From: Bacteroidales bacterium
Lineage (GTDB): Bacteria; Bacteroidota; Bacteroidia; Bacteroidales; VadinHA17
DNA length: 63,388 nucleotides
Assembly (NCBI GenBank): GCA_021157415.1
Contig: JAGGWN010000002.1
Span: forward strand, 1-63,388
Direction: 5' to 3'
The notes beneath the pieces are model-generated. The model worked only from the letters and a program-made list of their open reading frames with translations. It was not told the DNA's origin and did not search any database. Below, piece after piece: positions 62,076 to 63,388 of the stretch. A program made the position numbers and the translations under genes. Each line of letters begins with the position of its first letter. Position 1 is the stretch's first letter.

Positions 62076-62140
62076 AAGCATGCTGTGGCCCGCAGAGATG
62101 CAACATTATTTTTCTGTTTTTTCCGGTATCATTTTTTTTG

Positions 62141-62148
62141 TATTTTTG
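62141..62148 (+). promoter_or_regulatory. Candidate promoter of the tRNA-Pro / GIY-YIG unit
   Basis: TATTTTTG fits TAnnTTTG. It lies 33 bp before a broken tRNA-Pro start (62181) and has no other gene to serve, so it is probably the original tRNA promoter and now drives the GIY-YIG gene and the intact tRNA. Confidence 0.5.
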
Positions 62149-62180
62149 CCCCGCTTTACTCCGTGAGTGAGGGGGGTATT

Positions 62181-62336
62181 CGGGGTGTAGCGTCCGCCCA
62201 CCTGATTACAGGTGTTCGGACAAGCAGTCCGGTCCCGTTTCTGCCCGGATCTTCGATCCGGCAGCAGAAACGAGGATCCTCGAAAAATCAGGCAAATCAA
62301 AGATTTGCGATTTTTCGGGATTAGCGCGCGTTCGGG
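62181..62336 (+). pseudogene. Broken tRNA-Pro 5' half invaded by hairpins
   Basis: Pieces identical or nearly so to the intact tRNA-Pro at 62578 occur in order: CGGGGTGTAGCG (62181-62192), GCAGTCCGGT (62224-62233), and TTAGCGCGCG then TTCGGG (62321-62336). Hairpins fill the gaps: 62192-62221, 62237-62271 and 62281-62317. The homology stops just after the anticodon bases, one base before the GIY-YIG start codon. Confidence 0.7.
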
Positions 62337-62337
62337 T

Positions 62338-62601
62338 ATGTATTACGTATATGTCATAGAATCAGAGAGTAGTGGGAGATATTATATCGGGCAAACCGGT
62401 AACCTGGAAGAGAGATTGGAGAGGCACAATAATGGCAGAGTGAAGTCAACAAAAAGCCGGGGTCCGTGGAAACTAAAATATTATTTTGAGTTGAAAACAA
62501 GAAAAGAAGCGGTATCTTTGGAGCAGAAGCTTAAAAATATAAAAAAAAGAGATTTATTGATTAAGTATTGTAATATTCGGGGTGTAGCGCAGTCCGGTTA
62601 G
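62338..62601 (+). CDS. Small GIY-YIG nuclease overlapping tRNA-Pro
   Basis: 87 aa. YVYVIES and RYYIGQT form the GIY-YIG core; Arg26 in EERLERHN and Glu62 in SLEQKL are the catalytic Arg and Glu. Alone-standing GIY-YIG proteins of this size (UPF0213/YhbQ type) are common. Start chosen at 62338 because a longer frame runs through the hairpin region. Codons 81-87 (RGVAQSG) and the stop TAG are the first 24 nt of the intact tRNA-Pro gene, so the protein end is read out of the tRNA. Probably a selfish element associated with the tRNA; that is inference. Confidence 0.85.
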   Translation: MYYVYVIESESSGRYYIGQTGNLEERLERHNNGRVKSTKSRGPWKLKYYFELKTRKEAVSLEQKLKNIKKRDLLIKYCNIRGVAQSG

Positions 62602-62652
62602 CGCGCGTCGTTCGGGACGACGAGGTCGGGAGTTCGAATCTCCCCACCCCGA
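62578..62652 (+). tRNA. tRNA-Pro (anticodon CGG)
   Basis: Complete cloverleaf: acceptor CGGGGTG / CACCCCG, D stem GCGC / GCGC, anticodon stem CGTCG / CGACG with loop TTCGGGA, so the anticodon is CGG (codon CCG), variable AGGTC, T arm GGGAG-TTCGAAT-CTCCC, discriminator A. CCA is not encoded. Its 5' 24 nt are shared with the GIY-YIG gene. Confidence 0.95.
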
Positions 62653-62662
62653 CTGTTTACAA

Positions 62663-62697
62663 AATAACCTCCTGTATAACAGGGGGTTATTTTTTTA
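62663..62697 (+). terminator. Terminator after tRNA-Pro
   Basis: AATAACCTCCTGT / ACAGGGGGTTATT stem with a short loop at 62663-62692, followed by T6-7. Confidence 0.85.
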
Positions 62698-62912
62698 TCC
62701 GTCACAACACCCGTCACAAATACCCAAAGAACCTTCATGCTTTACAAAGATAAACCGATCTTTGAGAAAGTCCAAAAGGGAAAGACATATACCCATTATG
62801 AGATGATTCATCCTTATAAAATACGTGTTTGCTCATGCGTTAAAAAACATAATTTTCCCTGTATAATTTAAGGAGATATTTTGTAAGTTGGTGTCCCTTT
62901 AGGAGCCAGAAA

Positions 62913-63347
62913 ATGAAAAAAGAGAAAAAATTACCGGAGAAGAATGTTGATGAGTACAAACAACAAATAAAGTTTTTAGCTCAATATATAAGTGAAAGCA
63001 TACACTGGTTAAATGAGTTTAAGATCCTTTTTCCGGATAATGATTTACAATATGAACTTTATAATGAGATTGCTCCTAATTTCTTCACTTATCTATCCCG
63101 ATTTTACTTTAATTATTTCTTTCTGCTGATTAGCAAAATGTTTGATCCGATAACGTCAGGAGGGTTCGAAAATCTAACTCTTTATCAAATAGCTAAACTT
63201 CCAAGTGAGATTTTCTCCGATGAAAAAGAAATGATTGAAAATGAAAAAGAGATTGAAAATGACATCAATGTTATCAAGGAAGAAACGAAAACAATTTTAG
63301 AAGCGAGGAACAAAATATTAGCACACAATGATCTTAACACAATATAG
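62913..63347 (+). pseudogene. AbiU2-like HEPN protein, probably truncated by an IS
   Basis: 144 codons. An alpha-helical protein with YLSRFYFNYFFLLISKMFDP and ARNKILAHNDL. The R-x5-H arrangement (Arg in ARNKILAH) is the RNase motif of HEPN proteins, and the whole resembles the AbiU2 group from phage-abortive-infection systems. The reading frame stops right where an IS-like terminus begins, and family members continue past this motif, so the C-terminal part is probably lost. It lies 260 bp after tRNA-Pro, as expected for cargo of a tRNA-integrated island. Confidence 0.55.
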
Positions 63348-63388
63348 TACTCCCCAAAATTAGGACCACTGGTTAAGTTGAAAAAAAG
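63347..63388. mobile_element. Probable IS end (IS3-family-like), partial
   Basis: The last bases, starting with TAGTACTCCCC and continuing AAAATTAGGACCACTGG, resemble the CCCCAAAA-x-T-x-x-G-x-C terminal inverted repeats of IS3/IS150-type elements in Bacteroidota. No transposase is visible before the window ends. Confidence 0.4.

Follow-up and report, generated by a model that had tools for sequence, protein, structure and literature searches.

The window analyzed here, a stretch of 63,388 nucleotides from a Bacteroidales bacterium, carries a small GIY-YIG nuclease gene between a broken and an intact copy of one tRNA-Pro gene, which raises the question of how the nuclease gene came to lie there and why the tRNA gene beside it is whole. 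tRNA genes are essential and often single copy, and elements of the kind proposed here would enter them at fixed positions and yet leave them whole. The evidence indicates that the locus is probably a member of a family of very small homing-like mobile elements that invade and rebuild tRNA genes.

The intact tRNA-Pro(CGG) at 62578-62653 was identified by ARAGORN and by Rfam (RF00005, 65.9 bits). Upstream of the GIY-YIG ORF, positions 62181-62336 hold a second, broken copy of nt 1 to 39 of this tRNA, which shares with it, in tRNA order, the exact repeats TATTCGGGGTGTAGCG, GCAGTCCGGT, TTAGCGCGCGT, and CGTTCGGG. Gapped alignment of the broken copy to tRNA-Pro scored 41, versus 14 with the reversed tRNA, and its extension to nt 39 shows that the copy stops right past the anticodon (nt 36 to 38). 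The copy is ordered as nt 1 to 11, a 32-nt hairpin, nt 12 to 20, an 88-nt hairpin pair, and nt 21 to 28 followed by nt 32 to 39. The original prediction had recognized the broken 5′ part that ends past the anticodon, the nuclease gene, and the intact tRNA, all of which are confirmed by ARAGORN, Rfam, PF01541, and the repeats; the hairpins after nt 11 and nt 20 go beyond that account, as do the mirror-image 3′ form, the arrays, and the hairpin-only copies described below. The features of the locus are as follows:

62132-62149, forward strand: probable promoter of the tRNA unit (TTTTTTTTGTATTTTTGC), today before the broken copy (from sequence), which we take to be of the Bacteroidota type
62181-62191, forward strand: broken copy, tRNA-Pro nt 1 to 11, the original tRNA start (repeats, alignment, leader match)
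62192-62223, no strand: hairpin insert A, 32 nt, between tRNA nt 11 and 12 (alignment)
62224-62232, forward strand: broken copy, tRNA nt 12 to 20, the last letters being the D-loop GG (repeats, alignment)
62233-62276, no strand: insert B, first hairpin, TCCCG...CGAGGA (repeats, fold, alignment)
62277-62320, no strand: insert B, second hairpin, TCCTCG...CGGGA (repeats, fold, alignment)
62321-62336, forward strand: broken copy, tRNA nt 21 to 28 and 32 to 39, ending right past the anticodon (alignment)
62338-62601, forward strand: GIY-YIG nuclease ORF, 87 codons, final 24 nt within the tRNA (PF01541, E 1.9e-17)
62578-62653, forward strand: intact tRNA-Pro(CGG), with nt 1 to 20 supplied by the element on the best reading (ARAGORN, Rfam, leader test)

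The main insert, B (88 nt, TCCCG...CGGGA), lies exactly between tRNA nt 20 and 21, past the conserved GG of the D-loop, and the ends of its two hairpins, read directly from the sequence, are mutual reverse complements. Another copy in the same genome (L002) has an insert at the same place as hairpin insert A, and in the broken copy at tRNA-Pro(TGG) of genome G007 (L236) an insert resembling A has grown to several tandem hairpins. Between 61900 and 62900, only the tRNA reaches the Rfam gathering score, and a known RNA or intron in this region was rejected accordingly. The sequence from 62150 to 62345 folds far better than shuffled sequence (z −6.6 versus 200 shuffles), which favors a reading of the hairpin-bearing copies as functional RNAs (a processing signal, decoy, or regulator), with a nuclease that acts on the tRNA or its precursor in a host regulatory or toxin-like system. 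Taken with the distribution of the copies given below, we regard this reading as quite improbable. Past the tRNA, the DNA at 62654-63388 is by eye unlike that of the sister genomes, and an ORF at 62913-63347 with a HEPN_AbiU2 match possibly belongs to another integrated element.

The nuclease ORF runs from an ATG at 62338 to a stop at 62601, in an open frame that begins at an earlier GTG (62212), and the PF01541 match covers 62338-62598. As the original prediction stated, the first 24 nt of the intact tRNA encode the end of the nuclease: the C terminus reads ...RGVAQSG, with the D-loop TAG serving as stop codon. The Pfam GIY-YIG domain spans residues 1 to 71 of 87, so the protein consists of little beyond the catalytic domain. 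Residues Y5, Y16, G18, R26, H30, N31, and E62 are invariant among 12 aligned nuclease sequences, and Y5, Y16, G18, R26, and E62 are presumably the catalytic residues of GIY-YIG enzymes. The nearest solved chain is 1zg2 (UPF0213; E 2.4e-8), 1ywl also matches (E 0.0048), and PHROGs homing-endonuclease models match weakly (E 2e-5 to 2e-4). By sequence, the product is assigned to the GIY-YIG nuclease superfamily as a UPF0213-like member. The protein is under selection, with dN/dS values of 0.07, 0.10, 0.11, 0.14, and 0.41 in the 5 of 10 nuclease pairs for which the ratio was computable.

The same locus in close relatives shows where the insertion took place. Seven genomes of the genus provided five tRNA-Pro(CGG) loci: three are single intact tRNAs, the empty sites that the original prediction anticipated, one carries the hairpin only, and one is the window. 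Two whole tRNAs in tandem, including the nuclease-free pair that the same prediction had named as at odds with an insertion, were absent at all five. At all three empty sites, the leader aligns to the sequence that precedes the broken copy (z 7.8, 7.5, and 4.7) and shows no match to the sequence that precedes the intact tRNA (z −2.5, −0.7, and −1.1), and TTTTTGTATTTTTGC of the promoter region also precedes the single tRNA in the empty-site relatives L229, L231, and L232. Since the leader matches lie before the broken copy, the start of that copy is the original start of the gene, the sequence now preceding the intact tRNA arrived with the element, and the insertion lies inside the tRNA gene. 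One empty-site relative, G006, retains the neighboring oxidoreductase gene with 92% identity. The reading as an insertion that brought a nuclease gene together with a substitute for the lost tRNA end thus stands, supported by the empty sites and by the recurrence of the layout elsewhere, but two of its details do not. The element is inserted at the D-loop rather than at the anticodon, since the junction is marked by the hairpin that follows nt 20 and the copied segment merely ends near the anticodon, and the proposed likeness to a tRNA intron with a homing nuclease was rejected because a complete tRNA follows the ORF. Insertion in a conserved gene for which empty alleles exist is the situation of homing genes, whereas absence from the same locus in close relatives speaks against a functional RNA.

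Further hairpin copies in the same genome lie at tRNA-Pro(TGG) (two units), at tRNA-Val(CAC), and, by eye, in a tRNA-Asp fragment at a contig end, and three others (C45, C46, and C112) have no tRNA inside approximately 1.5 kb. These last three (L006, L005, and L007, respectively) are window-type hairpins within the short tandem repeats TTCAACTC and GATGAACGAT. The hairpin was matched in 31 of 117 family genomes, and 35 loci were examined, 6 of the window's own genome and one each of 29 others. Twelve of the 35 have a supported broken copy and are followed closely by an intact tRNA, at tRNAs for Pro, Val, Phe, Met, Arg, and Ala and at L029, which adjoins tRNA-Gly and whose copy by eye derives from another tRNA. 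The main hairpin falls between nt 18 and 22 in all 12, of which 2 contain a GIY-YIG ORF and 10 the hairpin without it. Window-type hairpins elsewhere in the genome were associated with presence of the window-type nuclease (8/13 versus 22/104; Fisher p 0.004, on manual counts from genome sets that differ slightly, 117 versus 114, and an arbitrarily chosen threshold of E 2e-19).

Both the hairpins away from tRNAs and the hairpin-only copies (10/12) fit a different account, in which three unrelated accidents coincide: half of the tRNA is locally duplicated in tandem, a REP-like hairpin enters the spare copy and is tolerated there, and a GIY-YIG gene lands in the spacer. The identity of the fragment with the adjacent tRNA in most 5′ forms is likewise compatible with local duplication. 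We judge such a coincidence unlikely in view of how regularly the parts occur together in other genomes. At E ≤ 1e-6, a search of 114 family genomes, drawn evenly from a larger group, gave 137 matches in 77 genomes, and 136 distinct ORFs, not necessarily one-to-one with the matches, were recovered by local search of the stretches around all 137, with identical neighborhoods counted once. An intact same-strand tRNA or tmRNA (one tmRNA) lies within 300 bp of 92 of these ORFs and a same-strand tRNA fragment alone accompanies 30, so that 122 of 136 have one or the other; 14 have neither, 2 of them at contig ends. No intact tRNA on the opposite strand was found within 300 bp of any of the 136, a count that is a better control than the binomial null of 1%, which is an estimate from tRNA density. 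This strand bias would also fit a functional RNA, whereas the association itself (122/136) is hard to reconcile with accidents.

The family and phylum loci together comprise 215 ORFs, 155 of which have a tRNA within 450 bp. The phylum loci are 29 taken automatically beside the window and 40 hand-picked stretches favoring single-contig genomes and arrays (L220, a 101-base duplicate, was omitted), so their fractions do not represent a random sample. In a test taken without the last 24 family matches, a copy of the tRNA on the other side of the ORF scored above every reversed-tRNA control in 120 of the 155 (56/80 in the family part) and was without support in 35. Recurrence of the copy at other GIY-YIG-tRNA loci, on which the original prediction depended, is thus seen and again argues against accidents. 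With this layout found next to numerous tRNA genes of other bacteria, the element gives the appearance of being mobile and widespread.

An insert of 14 to 130 nt is present in 79 of the 120 supported copies, the other 41 having none of that size, and for 47 of these 79, folding of the longest insert equals or surpasses that of 99 out of 100 shuffled versions. The insertion sites are sharp, a further point against accidents. Among 5′ forms, 21 of 47 inserts lie at nt 19 to 21, and among 3′ forms, 26 of 64 lie at two T-loop positions, 16 at 18 nt and 10 at 21 nt from the ARAGORN end, which in our own numbering are after C56 and at 53/54; these counts are of inserts of 14 to 130 nt without N, in places several per locus. 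G19 and C56 are in contact at the tRNA elbow. Complementary ends of at least 4 pairs occur in 31 of 111 inserts, versus 2% of shuffles. Hairpins often stand in for single tRNA arms, which would suit a functional RNA. Four sets of counts weigh against the preferred reading as an element: the hairpins without an ORF (10/12), the insert-free copies (41/120), the copy-free loci (35/155), and the tRNA-less ORFs (14/136).

The nuclease lineages track the tRNA isotype. On a nuclease tree of 119 of the 155 ORFs (copy score above 26, unsupported loci omitted), which is a fast tree from few columns with many open forks, isotype requires 25 changes versus at least 76 in 200 shuffles. The count is again 25 versus at least 68 with one row per locus and form (109 rows), and 12 versus at least 28 for the phylum loci alone (54 rows), although vertical inheritance, for which shuffling does not correct, may account for part of the clustering. 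Form (5′ or 3′) requires 13 changes versus at least 27, and the first four letters of the hairpin require 15 versus at least 24 (47 rows). Neither the tracking of isotype nor that of the hairpin start is expected from unrelated accidents.

The mirror order, with the intact tRNA first, then the ORF and then a 3′ fragment of the tRNA, is commoner than the order of the window: the intact tRNA lies upstream in 68 of the 92 family ORFs that have one and downstream in 24. In the 3′ fragments, the hairpin is often in the T-loop or replaces the anticodon arm. Within one nuclease clade, the same 20-nt hairpin lies in the D-loop of 5′ forms (L091 and L110) and in the T-loop of 3′ forms (L097 and L111), and at four loci (L165, L215, L217, and L224) supported copies flank one tRNA on both sides. 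Occurrence on either side of the tRNA counts against a functional RNA.

The 3′ form at tRNA-Arg(CCT) of G007 preserves a junction between two alleles. On the far side of the fragment, the flanking DNA matches that of the G005 tRNA (z 20.3) and none of the other four genus flanks (z 0.2 to 0.9), and the flank right after the intact tRNA-Arg has no match among the five (0.3 versus G005). The fragment itself, AGATACAGGTTC-hairpin-GAGTCCTGGTGGGGCTAC, is a chimera: by eye, the part left of the hairpin equals the intact tRNA of G007, while the part to the right equals the G005 allele in 18 of 18 positions, versus 15 of 18 for the genome's own intact tRNA, and an A-G mismatch results in the T-stem. 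A chimera of this kind is what is predicted if an element carrying one allele inserts into another, older allele, and it is unaccounted for by accidents; this allele junction comes from one locus, at which the reference G005 has a scarred leader and G007 has an additional hairpin-bearing 5′ fragment upstream. At the 3′ locus of G006, the second of the two to which the flank test was applied, neither flank matched any of the five genus flanks (z −2.4 to 1.4). Mismatches to the intact tRNA amount to 214 of 960 sites beyond the hairpin and 86 of 570 on the ORF side in 3′ forms, and to 77 of 747 and 43 of 457, respectively, in 5′ forms. An old-versus-new allele test across all loci was set aside, being confounded by double inserts.

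At some loci, 3 to 6 ORFs are repeated head to tail beside one tRNA with a regular spacing of 306 to 359 bp. These arrays comprise five units at 315 bp (L188, tRNA-Asp), three at 317 bp (L190, tRNA-Pro), four at 322 bp (L192, tRNA-Pro), three at 306 bp (L193, tRNA-Ser), and six at 357 to 359 bp in Flavobacterium caseinilyticum (L267), where the fetched stretch contains no tRNA, a point against the reading as an element of tRNA genes. In these five, successive units are 85 to 100% identical without gaps; other, less regular multicopy loci show 77 to 88% (L087) or include values under 70% (L195, L213, and L255). The arrays are difficult to reconcile with a functional RNA, and their units also bear on whether the locus is simply an island of the integrase type that uses a tRNA gene as its attachment site. 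Such islands share with the present locus a site in a tRNA gene and a restored tRNA, but units of 306 to 359 bp leave no room beside the GIY-YIG ORF for an integrase with its att sites, the hairpin lies at the D- or T-loop, and both 5′ and 3′ ends are used, which makes an integrase-type island very unlikely. The same units have no room for a Y1 (HUH) transposase as a partner.

A side branch of the nuclease occurs away from tRNAs, where eight ORFs of seven tRNA-less loci form one clade (one change on the tree, which includes 7 of the 11 full-length tRNA-less loci and leaves off L149, L152, L333, and L337). The ORF lies between exact inverted repeats of 10 to 16 bp at L116 (one of two ORFs), L121, L126, L133, L134, and L335, as exemplified by the pair ACCCTGTGAAATAA/TTATTTCACAGGGT, and the four units measured span 281 to 309 bp end to end. 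The neighboring frames at L116 and L133 are pieces of 23S_rRNA_IVP genes (E 2.5e-12, 7.7e-23, and 3.8e-6), that at L121 matches the same family weakly (E 0.0033), and the frame before the other L116 ORF has no match. These units resemble a minimal transposon, and their ORFs show that the nuclease family accompanies inverted-repeat DNA beyond tRNA genes, a setting at variance with a functional RNA.

A contig search extended the distribution. The best 80 of 262 loci, 10 of which repeat family loci, contain 94 ORFs, 69 with a same-strand tRNA within 450 bp, and include the isolates Flavobacterium xanthum DSM 3661, F. sharifuzzamanii, and Pedobacter montanisoli, the first of which has two units at tRNA-Pro(TGG) (L295). 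Among these 80, supported copies also occur on contigs labeled Ignavibacteriota, Calditrichota, Kryptoniota, Balneolota, Chloroflexota, Acidobacteriota, Margulisbacteria, Gottesmanbacteria, and Terrybacteria, and contigs labeled Chlorobiota and Myxococcota have an ORF by a tRNA without a supported copy; the labels are those of MAG contigs, of which single ones may be misbinned (one contig stands under two organisms, L303/L306). Six ORFs on viral contigs are not near a tRNA, and a phage origin was rejected after one IMG/VR scan returned five weak relatives (30 to 39% identity), none beside a tRNA.

Several known systems share individual features with the element. Fungal mitochondrial elements of the Allomyces atp6 type replace the end of the gene that they enter and similarly place a nuclease gene, with a copy of the lost end, inside a conserved gene, but these are mitochondrial protein genes rather than tRNA genes, and such arrays are not known there. 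The GIY-YIG nucleases of the Ssn family are specific for single strands and have target repeats throughout the genome in Neisseria; here too, a stand-alone UPF0213-like GIY-YIG domain is tied to repeated hairpin-forming DNA, whereas insertion in tRNA genes and replacement ends are features of the present element that are not known for Ssn. REP/REPIN elements are paired inverted hairpins with scattered nonautonomous copies, as here, and their partners are RAYT transposases; the partner in the present case is a GIY-YIG nuclease, and the tRNA loop positions are fixed. Integrative elements of tRNA genes also restore the tRNA, in contrast with which the present element has no integrase and shows the loop position, the hairpin, and 5′ restoration. 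Destruction of the target, as in homing of introns and inteins, is not seen, since the adjacent intact tRNA has an uninterrupted D-loop, a comparison valid only if the target is the tRNA sequence.

The closest parallel is SegB, a free-standing GIY-YIG homing endonuclease of T-even phages that cuts within tRNA genes (PMC13096335). According to the sections of that paper used here, its active site and phage recombination genes are required for tandem repeats of tRNA-Tyr plus segB, which form through a short stretch of homology that the 3′ end of segB shares with the 5′ end of the tRNA; GIY-YIG genes often adjoin tRNA genes in phages, with no isotype preference reported in those sections; and the sparing of its own genome is called an open question (PMC13096335). 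The systems have in common the GIY-YIG domain, the association with tRNA genes (here 122/136), and tandem repeats of tRNA and nuclease, and the 3′ end of the window nuclease gene coincides with the tRNA 5′ end, the same relation as the segB homology. The preferred SegB motif, RAWTSGAAC (GTTCSAWTY on the other strand), appears to resemble the T-loop of the 3′ forms. They differ in that the SegB genes are phage genes with a 718-bp repeat unit, with hairpins unmentioned in the main text of the paper (PMC13096335), whereas the present elements split and rebuild tRNA genes of the chromosome, encode little beyond a catalytic domain, and form lineages that track isotype. The open literature, at the level of titles and abstracts, yielded no description of hairpin-bearing GIY-YIG elements that split chromosomal tRNA genes, and the consulted part of a 2006 survey of the GIY-YIG superfamily mentions tRNA three times, all on other matters (PMC1564403).

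On the reading as a mobile element that rebuilds tRNA genes, a unit consists of a tRNA stretch, usually with a hairpin, a stand-alone GIY-YIG gene, and a replacement tRNA end. It sits inside a tRNA gene, most sharply past the D-loop GG or, in the mirror form, in or beside the T-loop TTC. The gene end severed by the insertion remains as the fragment, and the element's own copy of the lost end joins the remainder, making the tRNA whole again by sequence. The data show the insertion within the tRNA gene, the hairpin at its junction, the rebuilt gene, the presence or absence among relatives, the tandem arrays, and the tracking of isotype. The nuclease presumably drives the movement: it would cut the conserved tRNA loop or the hairpin, perhaps on a single strand only, and units would be inserted and multiplied either when the break is repaired from a copy that bears the element or when the tRNA ends of a unit cross over, as the phage SegB does for a tRNA segment. 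The tRNA ends may guide repair, and the hairpin-only copies may be nonautonomous relatives. A point against this reading is that the rebuilt tRNA again has an uninterrupted loop, so that self-cutting must somehow be avoided, as it would be by a nuclease that, like Ssn, sees only single-stranded or hairpin DNA.

More tentatively, and with rather less confidence than in the reading of the locus itself, the elements might constitute a novel class of bacterial mobile elements, ancient and widely distributed, with units of approximately 300 to 500 bp, hairpin ends in the D- and T-loops, and a cargo of one catalytic-domain GIY-YIG nuclease plus a replacement tRNA half or whole. Its lineages would be specialized by isotype, each with its own hairpin, and would swap tRNA alleles, with SegB as a long-armed cousin. 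If the reading as a tRNA-rebuilding element is right, many mostly unexplained small GIY-YIG genes become one system, tRNA allele replacement has an agent, and the tRNA-cutting habit of the phage SegB extends to bacterial chromosomes. Experiments could then also address how a protein with little more than a catalytic domain locates its target without harming the host, and compact site-specific nucleases may be obtained.

Two loci show units or ORFs in altered states. In G070 (L054), the tRNA-Pro past the ORF is reduced to its first part and the acceptor-stem end, giving a unit with a dead tRNA. In the window's own genome (contig C90; L011, 1019-1650), the tmRNA gene is followed directly by a truncated GIY-YIG ORF, which closes with a long inverted repeat and then T's and so looks like an ORF turned into the terminator.
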